Below, in pieces: positions 26,758 to 47,885 of a stretch of DNA of 64,000 nucleotides. A program made the translations under genes and the position numbers. Source of the stretch: Gemmatimonadota bacterium (GTDB lineage: Bacteria > Gemmatimonadota > Gemmatimonadetes > Longimicrobiales > Gaopeijiaceae); the NCBI GenBank assembly GCA_022825135.1, contig JAJDYN010000040.1, positions 62,001-126,000 on the forward strand, written 5' to 3'. Positions within the stretch are counted from its first letter, which is position 1, and every line of letters starts with the position of its first letter. The notes beneath the pieces were generated by a model. The model was not told where the DNA came from, did not search any database, and worked only from the letters and a program-made list of their open reading frames with translations.

Positions 26758-26823
26758 CAGCGGGCGGATTCTTCCGGGGGCTGCTACCTTCCAGAGGTCG
26801 ACCCACGACATCGAGGCGAGAAC

Positions 26824-27057
26824 ATGTTCGGTCCAGACCTGGTCTTTGTGGCGCTGCCCCTGCTGCTGGGATTCAACGAGATCCTTCTGGCGCTGGGCCT
26901 CCTGGTCCTCTTCTTCGGAGGCCGCAAGATTCCCGAGTTCGCCCGCGGGGTGGGCACGGGCATCAAGAACTTCAAGCGCGGCTTGAAGGAGGGGCAGGCG
27001 GATGAGTTGCCCCAGCTCCCCGAGGCGCCCGAGGAAGAAATAGCCCGCGAGTCCTGA
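26824..27057 (+). CDS. tatA: Twin-arginine translocase subunit TatA
   Basis: A 77-residue protein with one N-terminal membrane helix (FNEILLALGLLVLFFGGRKI), the FGGRKIPEFARG hinge and an amphipathic helix (GTGIKNFKRGLKEG), then an acidic tail. This is the TatA/TatE layout. TatA oligomers form the pore for folded, RR-signal proteins. One client is in this window: ActB (34919-37927) starts with an RRDFLRVVG signal. The other Tat components are not here. Confidence 0.92.
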   Translation: MFGPDLVFVALPLLLGFNEILLALGLLVLFFGGRKIPEFARGVGTGIKNFKRGLKEGQADELPQLPEAPEEEIARES

Positions 27058-27131
27058 AGGCCCGTGGACGCACCGCGCCCGGCATTCGAGCGGCGCTGCA
27101 TCCGCGCCCGACCGCGTCGCTGACCCGCCCC

Positions 27132-28022
27132 ATGCCGGGAGATGTGCCGGCGGAGGCTTCTCCGCTCTCCAACGTCGTGGTCGTGCTGCACGAGCCGCAG
27201 AACCTGGTCAACATCGCGGGCACGGTGCGGGCGATGATGAACATGGGGCTCGACCGGCTGCGCCTGGTTCGTCCCGCCGAGTTCGATGCCTGGCGCATCA
27301 CCGGGATCGCCCACCGCAGCGACCACCTGGTCGAGCGCGCCGAGATCCACGACACCCTGGCCGATGCCCTGGCCGACACCACGTTCGTGCTCGGCACCAC
27401 GGCGCGCGCCCGCACCGCCCACCGCAACTACGGGCGGCCGCGCGAGCTGGCGGCCCAGGTGGTCGAGCGCGCCTCCCGGGGCACGGTGGCGGTGCTCTTC
27501 GGCCGCGAGGACCGGGGGCTCTCCAACCAGGCGCTCGACCTGTGCAACCGGGTGGCCATCGTCCCCACCCTCCCCGAGTACAAGAGCCTCAACCTGGCGC
27601 AGGCGGTGCTGATCCTGGCCTACGAGATCTTCCTGGCGGCGCACGACCCGGCGGAGCTGCCCCGGGGACGGCGCGCGACCGAACCCGCCAGCAGCGCCGA
27701 ACTGGAGGAGACCTACGCGGTGCTCGAGCGCGGCCTCAACCGCATCGACTTCTTCACCCGCCGCGCGCCCGAAGGTGTGATGCGCACGCTGCGCACGATC
27801 ATCGCGCGCGCCGAGCCGGACACCCAGGAAGCGGGGATCCTGAGGGCTGTCGGGTACGAGATCAGGCGCTACGCCGAGCGCGCGGAGGGATTGGCGGCCA
27901 GGCGCGACGGGGCTGAATCCATCGACGGGGCCGAATCCGCCCACGGGGCCCAATCGACCGACGAGGCCGAATCCGTCGAGACCGGGTTGGCCGCCGGGGC
28001 TCCGTCGGAGCGGGCCGACTGA
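27132..28022 (+). CDS. trmJ: TrmJ-like tRNA 2'-O-methyltransferase (SpoU/TrmH superfamily)
   Basis: A 296-residue SPOUT methyltransferase. Motif 1 is VVVVLHEPQNLVNIAGTVRA with LDRLRLVRP. The trefoil-knot motifs are GTVAVLFGREDRGLSNQALD and VPTLPEYKSLNLAQAVLILA, diagnostic of TrmJ/LasT proteins that methylate position 32 of tRNA anticodon loops. A C-terminal helical extension (ERGLNRIDFFTRRAPEGVM) is also TrmJ-like. The last 45 residues contain four copies of a six-residue repeat (27906-27977) and end in a low-complexity acidic tail, which lies beyond the usual end of the family. Confidence 0.9.
   Translation: MPGDVPAEASPLSNVVVVLHEPQNLVNIAGTVRAMMNMGLDRLRLVRPAEFDAWRITGIAHRSDHLVERAEIHDTLADALADTTFVLGTTARARTAHRNYGRPRELAAQVVERASRGTVAVLFGREDRGLSNQALDLCNRVAIVPTLPEYKSLNLAQAVLILAYEIFLAAHDPAELPRGRRATEPASSAELEETYAVLERGLNRIDFFTRRAPEGVMRTLRTIIARAEPDTQEAGILRAVGYEIRRYAERAEGLAARRDGAESIDGAESAHGAQSTDEAESVETGLAAGAPSERAD
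27906..27977 (+). repeat. Four 18-bp tandem repeats inside trmJ
   Basis: Four in-frame 18-bp units encode DGAESI, DGAESA, HGAQST and DEAESV in the C-terminal tail of the TrmJ-like protein. Unit boundaries are 27906, 27924, 27942 and 27960. The DNA units differ at several positions, so the expansion is not brand new. Confidence 0.8.
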
Positions 28023-28042
28023 CGCGCACCACCGCGAAAGAC

Positions 28043-28061
28043 CGGGACCCGATCGGTCCCG
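28043..28061 (+). terminator. Hairpin after trmJ, possible weak terminator
   Basis: CGGGACC (28043-28049) and GGTCCCG (28055-28061) form a perfect 7-bp stem over a 5-nt loop, 21 nt after the trmJ stop. The following ATCTTCC is only moderately T-rich, so termination would be partial at best. Confidence 0.4.
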
Positions 28062-28099
28062 ATCTTCCATTCCTGCTCGTCGGGCGTTGCGATAGCCTC

Positions 28100-28921
28100 T
28101 TGGGTCGCTCGTCCGTCCACACTCCGCGCGGGATCTCGCTCTTGGCACATCCCTCCGGGCCCGAGGCGTATTCAGACGGACGCTTGAAGCGGAAACCGGC
28201 CCGGGTCCCCCGCCGGAGGCGAAGGCCGAGCCCGGGCACCCCCTGCCGTCTCGACGCCCGCTACGTTCGGGAGCTGGAGGTGAGGCTGCGCCGGATGGAG
28301 CGGATCGCGGAAGTCAATCGGCGCCTGGCGCTGACCGATCCGCTGACCGGTCTTCCGAATCGCCGGCACCTGGAGCGCTATCTGGATCGGGTCCTGGTCC
28401 GCGGTGTCCTCGCGGCTTCTCACCAAACCGGTTCTCGCCTTCGCCCGTTCTCGCTGGTTCTCTTCGACGTGGACGACTTCAAGCGCTTCAACGAACGCCA
28501 CGGCTACGTCGCCGGTGACGAAGTGCTGTCGGTCCTGGGAAGGACGCTCTCCAGGGCCTGCCCGACTCTGACGGCCCGGCTGGGCGGAGACGAATTCGTC
28601 GCCCTCCTTCCCGGAAAGGCAATCGACGAGGCCCGGGAAGCGGCCCGGCACATGGCGAAGGCGGTTGCGGGGGACCCGGCGCTCTCCGTGCACGGGGTCA
28701 CGGTCAGTGTCGGTGTCGCCGCCCTGAACACCGGCATGAACCGCTGGCAGGATCTCCTTGCGGCGGCGGATCTGGACCTCCGCCGCCGGCGCTCGCCCAC
28801 CCGCCCGCTCCCGGAGGGCTGCGACCTTCGATATCTTGGGGCGCACTCGCTCGGCACGCGCTGGCCTTCCCGTCAGGCGCGGCACACGGAATCCCCCGCA
28901 CGCGCCCGACCTCCGCCATGA
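28100..28921 (+). CDS. GGDEF-domain protein, probable diguanylate cyclase
   Basis: About 273 residues if TTG 28100 is used. After a basic, proline-rich N-terminus of about 55 residues, a short helix (VRELEVRLRRMERIAEVNRR) leads into the GGDEF domain: LALTDPLTGLPNRRHLE, SLVLFDVDDFKRFNERHGYV, LTARLGGDEFVALLPG (canonical active-site GGDEF) and VSVGVAALNTGM. This makes cyclic di-GMP from two GTP. No RxxD inhibitory site upstream of GGDEF, no sensor and no membrane helix are evident. The start is uncertain; TTG at 28142 or a more internal start would keep the whole catalytic domain. The stop overlaps the hisN ATG (ATGA), which couples the two genes. Confidence 0.85.
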   Translation: MGRSSVHTPRGISLLAHPSGPEAYSDGRLKRKPARVPRRRRRPSPGTPCRLDARYVRELEVRLRRMERIAEVNRRLALTDPLTGLPNRRHLERYLDRVLVRGVLAASHQTGSRLRPFSLVLFDVDDFKRFNERHGYVAGDEVLSVLGRTLSRACPTLTARLGGDEFVALLPGKAIDEAREAARHMAKAVAGDPALSVHGVTVSVGVAALNTGMNRWQDLLAAADLDLRRRRSPTRPLPEGCDLRYLGAHSLGTRWPSRQARHTESPARARPPP

Positions 28922-29724
28922 ACACATCCCGTCCGACGGGGATCGAACTCGGTGACCTGGCGCGCACGGCCGAGGAACTCGCGCGCGCCGCCGGAGAGAT
29001 CGCCCTGCGGTACTTCGGCACCCGGATCGAGGTCGAAACCAAGGCCGACGACACCCCGGTCACCGTCGCGGACCGGGAAGCCGAGAGCCTTTTGCGCGCG
29101 GAGATCCGGCGCCGCTTCCCCGACCACGGCATCGTCGGGGAGGAGCACGGCGAAGTGCAACCCGGAGCTCCCGTGCGGTGGATTCTCGATCCGATCGACG
29201 GCACGAAGTCGTTCGTTCACGGGGTTCCGCTGTGGGGCGTCCTGATCGGCATCGAGGTGGAGGGGGAGCCCGTGGTCGGGGTCGTCCACCTGCCCGCGCT
29301 CGGTGAAACGGTGACAGCCGCCAAAGGCCTGGGGGCCCGGTGGAACGGCGAGTCCTGCTCGGTCTCCAGCGAGAACCGGTTGGACCGGAGCCTCGTGCTC
29401 ACCACCGACGAGGCGGCCTTTCACGGTCACTCCGGCGAAGCGGGCTGGCGGGCCCTGGCCGCCGCCGCGCGCATGACCCGCAGCTGGGGCGACTGCTACG
29501 GCCACGTCCTGGTCGCCACGGGCCGGGCTCAGGTCATGGTGGACCCGCTGCTCGCCTCCTGGGATGCGGCGCCCCTGCTGACTATCGTCACGGAGGCCGG
29601 CGGGTGCTTCACGGACGTGTCGGGCGATCCCACGATCCACGGCGGCTCCGGGGTATCCAGCAATCCCGCACTCCACCCGCGGGTGCTGAAGTTGCTGGCC
29701 GGAGGAGCCGACCCGGTCCGCTGA
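28918..29724 (+). CDS. hisN: Inositol-monophosphatase-fold phosphatase, HisN-like (histidinol-phosphatase)
   Basis: A 268-residue Mg-dependent phosphomonoesterase. PVTVADREAESLLRAEI supplies an early metal ligand, HGIVGEEHGE the EE pair, WILDPIDGTKSFVHGVPLWG the DPIDGT signature and SWDAAPLLTIVTEAGGCFTD the second signature. The KSFVHGVPLWGVLI context and overall pattern are closest to HisN-type histidinol-phosphatases, but inositol-monophosphatase or CysQ-type activity cannot be excluded from sequence reading. The ATG overlaps the stop of the GGDEF gene. No other histidine genes are present. Confidence 0.88.
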   Translation: MNTSRPTGIELGDLARTAEELARAAGEIALRYFGTRIEVETKADDTPVTVADREAESLLRAEIRRRFPDHGIVGEEHGEVQPGAPVRWILDPIDGTKSFVHGVPLWGVLIGIEVEGEPVVGVVHLPALGETVTAAKGLGARWNGESCSVSSENRLDRSLVLTTDEAAFHGHSGEAGWRALAAAARMTRSWGDCYGHVLVATGRAQVMVDPLLASWDAAPLLTIVTEAGGCFTDVSGDPTIHGGSGVSSNPALHPRVLKLLAGGADPVR

Positions 29725-29776
29725 AGCGCAGTCAGGCCGGCCCGATCGGCGCCGACCCCCGCTCCCACGGTCTCCT

Positions 29777-31006
29777 TCAGAAGCTCCCTTCGTTCCTGCG
29801 AAACCGATGGAGCGCCAGGACTGTCTCTCCGAAATCCTCCAGGCGAAGCGCCAGGAAGGTGGAATCGGACACGAACGCAACCGGCACCCCGGGCGCGTCG
29901 AATGTGCCCTCGTACCCCCCGGCAGGATCGAAGACATCAATGGCGTGGGGCGAGATCCCATCGAGGGTGCGAGTGACCCAGAACCGCCCTCCGGGGGCCG
30001 CAGTCACGCTCATGACGGGCGGGATCCGCTCCTCGTATCCGAGGGCGGTCACGATGTCCTCCGCCTCCAGGCCGGACTGGCGCATGAAGGCGGCGTATAG
30101 GCCCGGACCCGACTCGATCTTCCTGACAGCCAGTTCCTGCGTCACTTCGATGGCATCCACCGAGCGTCTGAAACTCAGCGCCAGCGCGCCATCGACGCTC
30201 TTGTCGATACGATACTCGGGCCCGTTCAGAAAGAAGATGGAGTCTCCCCGGTTCGTCCAGACGACGGTGGGGACGAAAACCCTGACGGCTGGAATGGACC
30301 CGGCGGCCAACTCCATGATGGCCATCTCTTCCGTGACTTCGTGCAACGTCGTGGTGTCGCCTTCCCTGTGGATGACCAAGTGCCGCTCGAAGGCCATTCC
30401 CGCTGCCGTGACCGTCACCGTCGCGAGCCAGTCGGTTCCCACCGCGAACCCCGGGCCCCCGTAGTCCAGATCCGGACGCTCTTCGGCCAGGAAATCCCCT
30501 CCGCTCGACCAGCGACTGAGGATGCGGCGACGGTTGTCCCACACGACAAGCGATCCGGAGGGATCCATCGAGACCGCGGCAGGATCGCGAAACTCTCCGG
30601 GCCCGTCCCCCGAGCGCCCCAGGGTGCCCACGTACATTCCCGAGGGTTCGAACACGACGACCCGGTCATTGGGTCGATCCGCCACGAAAATCCGCCCCGT
30701 CACCTCATCGACCGTGACGCCCTGGGCGACCACCGTGAGCGCGCTGTCGGGAGGTATGAGATCGGCCAGCGGCGTGACTTCGATACCCAGCGGCCGGTCG
30801 AGCCCCGGGTTCTCGATGATGGTGACGCCCGCGGAGTCGTAGACGGCCGATGTGCCGACGTCGCGCTCCCCGGTTGTGCAGGAGGCCGTTGCCACCACCG
30901 CCAGCGCGACCGCAATCTTCGCCGCTGCTGCAAGGCCGACGCGTCCATGCGGCGTGAGCGGAAGGGTGTGCCAACGCCCGTCCGGGCCAAACGAAGTGCA
31001 CTTCAT
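29777..31006 (-). CDS. Six-bladed beta-propeller lipoprotein (paralogue 2)
   Basis: A 409-residue exported lipoprotein: signal KIAVALAVVATASC with lipobox ATASC, then YDSAGVTIIENPGLDRPLGI and NHL-like blades (IFVADRPNDRVVVFEPSG, GTLGRSGDGPGEFRDPAAVS, IFFLNGPEYRIDKSVDG). It parallels the propeller half of 444-2582 from the signal onward, with long near-identical stretches even at DNA level (compare 1801-1850 with 30207-30257), so the two are fairly recent duplicates. It lacks the SUMF1 extension. It starts 31 nt after actF on the same strand and may be a late cistron of the act operon. Function unknown; the family is abundant in Gemmatimonadota-like genomes. Confidence 0.85.
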   Translation of the reverse strand: MKCTSFGPDGRWHTLPLTPHGRVGLAAAAKIAVALAVVATASCTTGERDVGTSAVYDSAGVTIIENPGLDRPLGIEVTPLADLIPPDSALTVVAQGVTVDEVTGRIFVADRPNDRVVVFEPSGMYVGTLGRSGDGPGEFRDPAAVSMDPSGSLVVWDNRRRILSRWSSGGDFLAEERPDLDYGGPGFAVGTDWLATVTVTAAGMAFERHLVIHREGDTTTLHEVTEEMAIMELAAGSIPAVRVFVPTVVWTNRGDSIFFLNGPEYRIDKSVDGALALSFRRSVDAIEVTQELAVRKIESGPGLYAAFMRQSGLEAEDIVTALGYEERIPPVMSVTAAPGGRFWVTRTLDGISPHAIDVFDPAGGYEGTFDAPGVPVAFVSDSTFLALRLEDFGETVLALHRFRRNEGSF

Positions 31007-31037
31007 CGCCTCTACAACACCTCCGGAGGCGGGTCGG

Positions 31038-45026: not shown

Positions 45027-46064
45027 ATGTCCCAACTCGAAACGCTCTCCGCCGGAGGCGGGATGGCCAGCGAAGGCGCGCCCGTCGACCTGGCGATCGT
45101 GGGCGCCGGACCCTGCGGCCTGGCGGCGGCGAGCGCGGCCAGGGTCGGAGGCGTTTCGGCCACCGTCTTCGACCGCGGATTCATTACCGAATCCCTCATC
45201 CACTACCCTCCCTACATGACCTTCTTCTCGACGGCGGAGAAGCTCGAGATCGAGGATGTGCCCTTCATTCTTGCTTCCGGCAAGCCGACGCGCCGGGATG
45301 CCCTCGTCTACTACCGGCGCGTGGTGCGGCATTTCGCGCTGGATGTGCGCCAGCACGAAGAGGTGACGGCGATCGAGGGGCAGAGGGGGGACTTCGTGTT
45401 GCGCACGCGCCGCCGTGACGGTACCCGCGCCGGACACCGCGCCCGCGCCGTGGTGATCGCCACCGGAAGCTTCCACGAGCCCAACTACCTGGAGGTTCCG
45501 GGAGAGGACCTGCCCAAGGTGCACCACTACTACAGGGAGCCCGATCCCTACTACGACCAGGACGTTCTCGTGGTGGGCGGGCGCAACTCCGCGGTGGAGG
45601 CCGCGCTGGAACTCTTCCGGGCCCATGCGCGGGTCACGCTGGTCCACATCTTCGACGGGATCGACGATGGCGTGAAGCCGTGGGTGGTTCCCGACATCAC
45701 CAACCGGATCAGGTTCGGGGAGATCGCCACCCATTTCACGACGCGGGTTGCGGAGATCCGGCAACGCAGCGTCGTCCTGGAGCATCTGGAGACGGGCGAG
45801 ATCACCGAACTCGCCAACGACTGGGTCTTCGCCATGACGGGATGGCGGGCTTCACCGCTGCTTCTCGAGAGCGTGGGCGTCGGAATCGATGAGGAGACCG
45901 GCATTCCCCGTCACGACCGCGCCACCATGGAGACCAACACCCCCGGAATCTACATCGCCGGCGTGCTCGCCGCGGGCCACGACGCCAACAAGATCTTCAT
46001 CGAGAACGGGCGCTTCCACGGCGGCCTGATCGTGAACCACTTCAGGGCCTCCCGGCACGGCTGA
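45027..46064 (+). CDS. ypdA: YpdA-family FAD-dependent bacillithiol disulfide reductase
   Basis: A 345-residue flavoprotein. The FAD site is VDLAIVGAGPCGLAAASAAR. YPPYMTFFSTAEKLEIEDVP and RRDALVYYRRVVRHFALDV are diagnostic of YpdA; VVIATGSFHEPNYLEVPGED and DVLVVGGRNSAVEAALEL form the NADPH site, and NTPGIYIAGVLAAGHDANKI closes it. In Firmicutes YpdA reduces bacillithiol disulfide. Bacillithiol is also reported outside Firmicutes, so this hints at that thiol here. The start at 45027 is one of several (GTG 45018, ATG 45063). It is divergent from the coiled-coil/luxE/luxC unit; the 198-nt gap contains a TATATCTT element but no clear -35. Confidence 0.9.
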   Translation: MSQLETLSAGGGMASEGAPVDLAIVGAGPCGLAAASAARVGGVSATVFDRGFITESLIHYPPYMTFFSTAEKLEIEDVPFILASGKPTRRDALVYYRRVVRHFALDVRQHEEVTAIEGQRGDFVLRTRRRDGTRAGHRARAVVIATGSFHEPNYLEVPGEDLPKVHHYYREPDPYYDQDVLVVGGRNSAVEAALELFRAHARVTLVHIFDGIDDGVKPWVVPDITNRIRFGEIATHFTTRVAEIRQRSVVLEHLETGEITELANDWVFAMTGWRASPLLLESVGVGIDEETGIPRHDRATMETNTPGIYIAGVLAAGHDANKIFIENGRFHGGLIVNHFRASRHG

Positions 46065-46080
46065 GGAGGAGTTCGCAGGC

Positions 46081-46382
46081 GAGTCTCAAGCCGAACGGCC
46101 GGAGGCCGTGTTGGGCCGCTTTCCAGACGCGGACCGCTTCCGTCCCGCCGGGCTCATCGTGCGGTGGATGAAGAACCGGTGGGGGTCGCTCTCGCCAGCG
46201 GGTGGCCTGCCCCCTCAACCGCCGGCTCATCGAGGCCCGCCGGATGCGATCGACTACGTGATCGCACACGAGTTCTGCCACATGGCCGAGCCGAACCACG
46301 GGTCGGGGTTCCACCGCCGCTGAGCCGGATGATGCCCGGCTGGCAGGAGCGGAAGGAGACGGCTCGATGGCGTGAGGGGGAA
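46081..46382 (+). pseudogene. Frameshifted remnant of a YgjP/DUF45-type zinc metallopeptidase
   Basis: The characteristic text is present but split across frames. VRWMKNRWGSLSPAGG reads in one frame. LNRRLIEA reads in the next. PPDAIDYVIAHEFCHMAEPN, with the HExxH zinc site, returns to the first frame, which then stops at 46321-46323. LSRMMPGWQERKE continues in the third. At least three small indels have therefore broken the gene. The order of pieces matches the family, whose members often accompany restriction or other mobile functions. It lies between ypdA and the toxin-antitoxin-chaperone module. Confidence 0.75.
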
Positions 46383-46865
46383 TCACTCCCCAACCGGCGA
46401 CTCGTTCTCCACGCTGACTTCCTCGACGCCGGGCCTGAACACCGGCACGGTGATGCCGCCCAGGCCCGCCCGCCCGGTCATGCTCTGGACCAGTTCCCGC
46501 CAGTAGGGCCAGACGTTGAAGGTTCCGTTCAGGTCCGCAAAGTGCTTAAACGCCTCTGCGGAGTACTTGGCCGCGTCCTTCAGGGCGTAGGTCGCGAGGA
46601 AGGTCGCCGACAGGTCCACCTGCGACTTGGACTCCTCCGACGGCGTTCCATCCGGGGAGGCATCGAAATGCAGGTCGACGTAGACGCGCAGCCGGTCGGG
46701 TTCCGCGGAGTGCAGCCGGTGCCTGCAACGGTATCGGTTCGAAAGGAGCAGTTGTTCATCGTACTCTCCGGTCGCGTCCATGCGGACGCCGACGAGAGTG
46801 ACCGACTCGATCTGCACGTCGCGGGCCACAAGGCTCGCGAGGTCGAGGGTGGTGGACACGCTCAC
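46383..46865 (-). CDS. SecB-like chaperone of a toxin-antitoxin-chaperone module
   Basis: A 160-residue protein. The N-terminal half is beta-rich (VQIESVTLVGVRMDATGEYD, RLRVYVDLHFDAS) and the C-terminal half reads YALKDAAKYSAEAFKHFADL then FNVWPYWRELVQSMTGRAGL, ending VPVFRPGVEE. This matches SecB-like proteins, in particular the solitary SecB-like chaperones of TAC modules such as that of Mycobacterium tuberculosis. There it protects the antitoxin from aggregation and proteolysis. The GTG start (46865) is 4 nt after the higA stop. Confidence rests on fold pattern plus gene order; the sequence is divergent from housekeeping SecB. Confidence 0.78.
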   Translation of the reverse strand: MSVSTTLDLASLVARDVQIESVTLVGVRMDATGEYDEQLLLSNRYRCRHRLHSAEPDRLRVYVDLHFDASPDGTPSEESKSQVDLSATFLATYALKDAAKYSAEAFKHFADLNGTFNVWPYWRELVQSMTGRAGLGGITVPVFRPGVEEVSVENESPVGE

Positions 46866-46869
46866 CCCC

Positions 46870-47325
46870 TTAGGCGGCTAGAGCGATTGCGCCCGTGCGC
46901 GCCTTACGAGGCACATGGGCGGCGGCGGCGGGCGGCAGATCCATCGTGCGCTGATCACCGTCCGACGACCTGAACACCGGGACAGGGACCCGTCCGGCAG
47001 CCGCAACTTGAGTCACCGAGTTTCCCACCGGCACGAACACCTCGTCGTGGAGTTCGGCCAACTGCACCTCTGCTCGATGGCCGCATGCGTGGGCGAGCTT
47101 CGCGAGGCTTCGCAGGGTCATGTTGCGCGACCCGCTCAGAAGCCGGGTGACATTTGCCCGGCTGCTGCCGATCCGCGCGGCGAGGTCCGCCCGGGTGAGG
47201 CCGTGCTCGGCCATGACAGCCGCAATCTCCTCCGCCGCTTCCAGGATGAGCCGTTCCTCCTCGTACAGCTGGCGAAACGACGGATCCTCGGACTTGCGGC
47301 GCACCCAGGCTGTGGCGGTCTCCAT
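46870..47325 (-). CDS. higA: HigA-type antitoxin with C-terminal extension
   Basis: A 151-residue protein. An N-terminal helix (SFRQLYEEERLILEAAEEIA) is followed by an XRE helix-turn-helix at about 38-85 (MAEHGLTRADLAARIGSSRA, NVTRLLSGSRNMTLRSLAKL). About 60 further residues follow that are not needed for DNA binding (VFVPVGNSVTQVAAAGRVPV and onward). In TAC systems such a tail (chaperone-addiction sequence) makes the antitoxin depend on the SecB-like chaperone, and the chaperone gene indeed follows. The ATG at 47325 overlaps the ancestral higB stop as TGATG. As sequenced, the frame is also open upstream into higB (see that entry). Confidence 0.85.
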   Translation of the reverse strand: METATAWVRRKSEDPSFRQLYEEERLILEAAEEIAAVMAEHGLTRADLAARIGSSRANVTRLLSGSRNMTLRSLAKLAHACGHRAEVQLAELHDEVFVPVGNSVTQVAAAGRVPVPVFRSSDGDQRTMDLPPAAAAHVPRKARTGAIALAA

Positions 47326-47649
47326 CAGCGTTCTCTCGTTCTCTCGTTGAATTGGGCTCTCATCCTGATCGCCCTCTCTATGTCCGTCCGCTTGGCCTTC
47401 GCGGACTTCTTCACCGCCCCCAAGCGCGAGGATCAGCTGACCGGGGGCGAAGAAGCAGAATACCCTGTTTCGACCGCTCCTGATCTCCCAGATGCCGTCC
47501 GTGCCTCGGAGCTTCTTGAACTTGGTGTCGTTCGTGAGGAACCCTCGATCCCCCAACTGCTTGATGATGAGCGTCACACGCAGGCGTTCGCTGTCCGGCA
47601 GCGCCTGGAGGAACTCGCGTGCGGGCGACCGTCCGCTTGTCTGCTCCAT
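47325..47649 (-). CDS. higB: HigB/RelE-superfamily toxin, frameshifted near its C-terminus
   Basis: The protein starts MEQTSGRSPAREFLQALPDS and continues IIKQLGDRGFLTNDTKFKKL, GTDGIWEIRSGRNRVFCFFA, a Gp49-like HigB mRNA interferase. After LILALG the family C-terminus (AVKKSAKAKRTDIERAIRMR, AQFNERTRER) is in the +1 frame and ends TGA overlapping the higA ATG. The break is at a run of five C (47417-47421 on the plus strand); four would restore a 107-residue toxin. As sequenced, the zero frame instead reads straight into higA and predicts one 259-residue toxin-antitoxin polyprotein from this ATG. Causes could be a sequencing indel, an inactivating mutation, phase variation or programmed slippage. 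Confidence 0.8.
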
Positions 47650-47741
47650 GCACCTGATAGTAAGCCTGCTTCCCGCATACTCGGGTGGTTCCATTGCCGG
47701 CTTAGCGTGCCCGCACTCCGAACATCACTCGTGGAACGACG

Positions 47742-47757
47742 TTAACATATATGTCAA
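47742..47757. promoter_or_regulatory. Candidate HigA operator and -35 of the toxin-antitoxin-chaperone operon
   Basis: TTAACATATATGTCAA is a 16-bp near-perfect palindrome (core ACATATATGT, 47745-47754), the most AT-rich spot in the neighbourhood and 93 nt upstream of the higB start. Its outer half gives a minus-strand TTGACA (47757..47752), although no convincing -10 follows at normal spacing. Autorepression by the XRE antitoxin at such a dyad would be usual. Confidence 0.5.
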
Positions 47758-47885
47758 CCCCACGCCTGGCGTTGCCCGTGCGGGAGGCGTCCGAGGCGGC
47801 TGCGGTGCGGGTCGCCCGCTGTCAAGGTTGGGTCCAGTCCGGGAGTCGGTGGCGGGCTCTGGCACACCGTGGTCGCGGCACCCCC

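Follow-up and report, generated by a model that had tools for sequence, protein, structure and literature searches.

The described system closest to the locus presented here is higB1-higA1-Rv1957 (SecB-TA), which has the same gene order, an XRE antitoxin with a long tail and a SecB-like chaperone. Its antitoxin, HigA1, bears a C-terminal Val-Ala ClpX degron (PMC8165232). A SecB-like chaperone also governs the toxin-antitoxin pair in the anti-phage toxin-antitoxin-chaperone (TAC) modules HigBAC and CmdTAC (PMC11980606, PMC11618068), the CmdTAC toxin being an mRNA ADP-ribosyltransferase (PMC11618068) and not a HigB RNase. Fusions of toxin and antitoxin in a single gene are known as well. A total of 69 gp49-HTH and 10 HigB-HigA fusions have been reported in prokaryotes (PMC11980606), and a HicA-HicB fusion has been described (PMC4963859).

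We have analyzed a stretch of 64,000 nucleotides (the window) from a Gemmatimonadota genome, in which genes for a toxin, an antitoxin and a chaperone follow each other in that order, all on the minus strand. We consider it fairly probable that this is a horizontally gained TAC module in which a one-base frame change has put the toxin out of action and has left the antitoxin and the chaperone open. The features are the following:

47694-46870, minus strand: joined toxin-antitoxin ORF, 274 aa, the zero frame being open through both genes
47419..47649, minus strand: first 77 codons, in frame, of a HigB/Gp49-type toxin (PF05973 match; ATG at 47649)
47417..47421, minus strand: G5 run of the coding strand (C5 on the plus strand), site of the toxin frame change
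47325..47417, minus strand: toxin C-terminal segment, in the +1 frame only; it has the KK pair of the family and a stop that overlaps with the start of the antitoxin
46870..47325, minus strand: XRE/HigA-like antitoxin, 151 aa (HTH_26, HTH_3), with a variable tail of about 60 residues, defined by alignment and ending in ALAA
46383..46865, minus strand: SecB-like TAC chaperone, 160 aa (profile match to Rv1957)
46108..46323, plus strand: fragment of a YgjP-like metallopeptidase (PF01863, E 9e-14, profile 131-188 of 207)
46065..47883, no strand: segment of about 1.8 kb between two convergent genes, missing at all nine same-genus junctions fetched

Identity of the three genes

The in-frame toxin piece, searched in Pfam as 47418-47649, matches Gp49 (PF05973, E 7.4e-07, profile 1-66 of 90), and so do the toxins of all six relatives searched. 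It is 63% identical to the toxin of the related locus L011 over the same part. A profile of six relatives' toxins matches a single PDB sequence, HigB 6af3 (E 1.5e-05), which we take to be the S. pneumoniae protein. The HTH_26 and HTH_3 domains of the antitoxin are found within the joined ORF. In NCBIfam, the antitoxin matches the HigA family TIGR02607 below the family cut-off; no NCBIfam family was found for two relatives' toxins or for the chaperone. PADLOC gives 11 families for the window antitoxin, over its HTH part, the best one being PDC-M64B (E 3.6e-10), and none for the chaperone or for the one relative's toxin that was searched. A match of the same HTH part to PD-Lambda-2_B (E 6.1e-07) is a point of likeness to HigBAC and CmdTAC.

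The chaperone is 42-56% identical to those of six relatives. No Pfam family matches it at E values up to 1, and Pfam SecB is reached by only one of the seven members of the chaperone family, weakly (E 0.17). Against the PDB, the sole match of the family profile is Rv1957 (5mtw, E 1.6e-05). The chaperone gene adjoins that of the antitoxin, which has an extra C-terminal tail in the window and in six relatives. This tail is absent in L002, the only two-gene homologue compared, which has no SecB match within its 3.2-kb stretch. A complete HigB/Gp49 toxin gene is found in five relatives of the host family and not in the window.

The Gp49, HTH, tail and Rv1957 matches thus bear out the earlier note, which had proposed a TAC module here. 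Since gene order, antitoxin tail and chaperone fit the TAC modules described in PMC5105189 and PMC6377645, the sequence supports an assignment of the window locus to the HigB-HigA-SecB type. It differs from higB1-higA1-Rv1957 in its broken toxin frame, and the likeness of the two antitoxin tails lies in their presence and in their end.

The antitoxin ends in LAA or LVA in all seven loci with a complete or nearly complete chaperone; the tails otherwise differ. These ends (46873-46884 in the window, and those of L008 to L013) resemble an ssrA/ClpX degron. In a control set of 85 ORFs (45 from the sister genome G009 and 40 from the window, many of them orthologous), only one has such an end, and it is the window's own joined ORF (LAA). 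The predicted tmRNA tag of the window's genome is ANNHMAMAA. The hydrophobic end of the window antitoxin resembles the Val-Ala degron of HigA1, so the LAA and LVA ends fit a known TAC feature (PMC8165232).

Related loci and genomic setting

A chaperone match is found in 10 of 121 genomes of the host family, the window's own genome included, and in one of 11 genomes of its genus. The profile search of the chaperone gives 12 of 154 genomes in the order and 12 of 395 genomes drawn from the phylum, two weak partial matches being included in each case. A plasmid search gave distant relatives only: Four records match the joined ORF and 23 match the chaperone.

The ten family loci are found in three states. 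Five have a separate, uninterrupted toxin ORF: L009, L010 (which is the same as L006), L011, L012 and L013, the last with CTG where the aligned start codon falls. Two, the window and L008, have a broken toxin beside an open antitoxin and an open chaperone. The L008 toxin lacks 152 nt relative to that of L011, which is not a multiple of three; the two loci are 91-95% identical across two long blocks. The other three loci are remnants without a toxin match. L014 has a chaperone fragment only, while L015 and L016 have fragments of both antitoxin and chaperone, which deletions have brought together. Flanking DNA is common to L008, L011, L012, L014 and L015, and separately to L009, L010 and L016, so the degree of decay varies among copies that apparently occupy a single site. 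Four more distant toxins of the order (L002 to L005) are also uninterrupted.

In the window, the module lies in an insert bordered by a reductase gene which ends at 46064 and a convergent gene which begins at about 47884. At all nine junctions found in the same genus these two genes are about 0 to 75 nt apart, and the 1.8 kb are missing; a tenth genome of the genus, G006, has no reductase match and is left out of this count. The YgjP-like peptidase gene of the insert is a remnant which covers only 131-188 of the 207 profile positions. Scans of the insert for promoters and terminators gave none of either, and the repeats around it are short imperfect pairs, none of them at its two ends. The absence from all nine junctions and the fragmentary neighbor gene lead us to infer a recent gain, rather than repeated loss elsewhere: The insert of about 1.8 kb, with its TAC module, has probably been acquired horizontally, and recently.

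The five-base run and the frame change

The earlier note had described a HigB-like toxin, an XRE antitoxin with a 60-residue tail and a SecB-like chaperone, and this layout is confirmed, on the minus strand. Its account of the frames also holds. The zero frame runs from the toxin ATG at 47649 to the antitoxin ATG at 47325, over 324 nt, in frame and free of stops. The toxin-like C-terminus AVKKSAKAKRTDIERAIRMRAQFNERTRER is read in the +1 frame from 47417; its stop, which ends at 47325, overlaps the antitoxin start codon. The one-base change at 47417-47421 agrees both with these frames and with the aligned DNA, in which all five intact family relatives present a one-base gap at the site of the run.

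One explanation for a five-base run at this point would be a consensus or assembly error, the true genome having an ordinary intact TAC module and no fusion. Indels in homopolymers are a common type of sequencing error. The window comes from a genome in 41 contigs, 93% complete, which is the only one of its species examined, and the +1-frame end of the toxin is well preserved, together with its stop. In fact, the undamaged state of this end, of the antitoxin and of the chaperone fits a very recent mutation and a sequence error alike. We regard an error as rather unlikely, although it is the main rival to a toxin lost by frameshift.

Comparison with the sister genome G009 speaks against such an error. 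Apart from two partial ORFs, 53844_54230 of the window and 40950_42029 of G009, there is no clear frameshift in conserved genes over about 60 kb. The 40 window ORFs give 34 full matches, four without a match and two partial ones: a reductase with an over-long start, and 53844_54230, of which 114 of 128 aa are matched. In the opposite direction, 45 ORFs were called in the G009 stretch; 33 of them have a window match with at least 70% identity, and 27 are covered over at least 90%. Five of the six partial ones are explained, on inspection, by the edge of the window, by an over-long start or by a position antisense to better ORFs; the sixth, 40950_42029, lies in a divergent segment. With so few partial ORFs, base-call errors are not frequent here. 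We have considered a generally frameshifted assembly and rejected it, because most ORFs are full length against G009; a real mutation is therefore favored, not proven from the assembly alone. Two further points against an error are that toxin loss is common in the family loci and that the insert already has a decayed neighbor. The region 26764-31035 of the window is rearranged or divergent with respect to G009, and some of its ORFs have no match there.

The run itself might be a switch. The earlier note had suggested that programmed slippage or phase variation at this run could toggle between a separate toxin and a joined protein. In favor of such a switch are the open state of both frames and the overlap between the stop of the toxin and the start of the antitoxin. 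Nevertheless, the result which the note itself had named as a refutation was obtained: Five relatives have intact separate genes, and the indel is found in one genome only. None of the five intact family relatives has a G-run at this site, so we have rejected a conserved slippery site. Their toxin-to-antitoxin distances, taken modulo 3, are 1, 2, 0, 2 and 2, which means that the frame relation between both genes is not conserved. There are 192 runs of G or C in the window, each five to nine bases long. In aligned blocks of window and G009 of at least 1,500 columns there are 175 such runs, of which only five have an indel in the run itself or no more than two bases from it. Against G009, an indel in the G5 run at window position 2600 and another near 2767 lie between the genes of that region. 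Runs of this type are thus common and mostly stable. The present one has five bases and is not the long or length-variable homopolymer of phase-variable simple repeats. A scan of viral contigs with a variable-gap DNA pattern around the run gave no matches, which says little. Taken with the evidence above, slippage or phase variation is very improbable.

An open frame across the toxin is not a special feature either. Upstream of the antitoxin its frame is open for 351 nt in L010 and for 264 nt in L009; the remaining three intact relatives have 0, 33 and 72 nt. The idea of a special open linker frame has been discarded, since the antitoxin frame of L009 and L010 extends without a stop across much of the toxin. 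With these open frames, and with a GC content of 69% in the DNA here, read-through after a frame slip is unsurprising.

The joined reading frame and the loss of the toxin

After such a frame change at the G5 run, ribosomes starting at the toxin ATG would miss the stop next to the antitoxin start and would continue into the antitoxin. The predicted product consists of 77 residues of the toxin, 31 residues read out of frame and the complete antitoxin, which may also be translated from its own ATG. In the intact relatives, by analogy with known TAC modules, the chaperone would bind the antitoxin tail and shield it from aggregation and proteolysis; titration of the chaperone would lead to degradation of the antitoxin and would set the HigB RNase free.

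The joined protein may be compared with complete toxins. Its Gp49 match ends at profile position 69 of 90 in the 274-aa ORF; that of the 77-codon piece ends at 66, and those of all six relatives' toxins end at 86-89. In the KK pair of the family, the first Lys aligns with the Lys of an FMK stretch in HigB 6af3, which in our own reading of F90 and K92 in PMC9098466 is K92. According to the same paper, K92 of S. pneumoniae HigB corresponds to K95 of HigB-TAC, a change of K95 to Ala abolishes toxicity, and helix alpha3 of HigB is critical (PMC9098466). Neither the lysine that aligns with the catalytic residue nor the C-terminal end of the toxin is in frame in the joined ORF. A protein without this lysine and without the end which forms alpha3 would be non-toxic.

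A working fusion assisted by SecB, similar to the described gp49-HTH fusions, has precedents in the 69 reported cases (PMC11980606) and in a natural protein which we have found in a Candidatus Manganitrophus plasmid (L061, 1210-1872), a single-gene Gp49-HTH fusion of 221 aa. As in the gp49-HTH and HigB-HigA mono-gene modules (PMC11980606), a Gp49-type toxin domain is followed by an HTH in one ORF. The toxin domain of L061 is practically complete (Gp49 1-89 of 90); that of the window covers 1-69, has no C-terminal part and has lost the aligned catalytic lysine. The linker of the window protein is an out-of-frame translation of toxin DNA. In the viral contigs, where five loci were found, the three inspected have two separate ORFs ahead of SecB. 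We find a functional fusion hardly credible. The self-neutralized polyprotein of the earlier note is not supported, in view of the loss of the lysine and of the toxin end, of the fragmentary neighbor gene in the insert and of the other lesions by which other family loci have lost their toxin. Toxin-antitoxin fusions of this toxin family, and the HicA-HicB fusion, are already on record, so a fusion as such is not new. No report of a TAC locus joined by a frameshift was found in the part of the literature searched, which is weak evidence of absence.

Toxin loss might also have been selected, as a sub-case of the decay that we favor, with which its probability overlaps. The antitoxin and the chaperone would then act as an anti-addiction pair against related TAC toxins entering the cell. 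In favor of this idea, two of the ten loci, the window and L008, keep both partners open beside a broken toxin. Against it, all parts are missing or truncated in three further loci, as in plain decay. We regard such selection as very improbable.

We return to toxin inactivation by a frame change in a horizontally gained module. The intact, toxin-broken and remnant states of the family loci argue for decay of the toxin. Most likely the seeming fusion of toxin and antitoxin is a side effect, and what we observe is mostly ordinary gene decay. It is very doubtful indeed that rare slippage at the run still yields a trickle of separate toxin while the mRNA encodes mostly an inert chain, stabilized by the SecB-like chaperone. 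If it did, one short run would set the toxin dose, a new way of dosing.

In summary, a striking read-through ORF can come about when a TAC module decays in an ordinary way. The loci of this family, some intact, some with a broken toxin and some reduced to remnants, make up a small natural series. Several of them have common flanks, and the series may serve to find out which component of an addicted module goes first.
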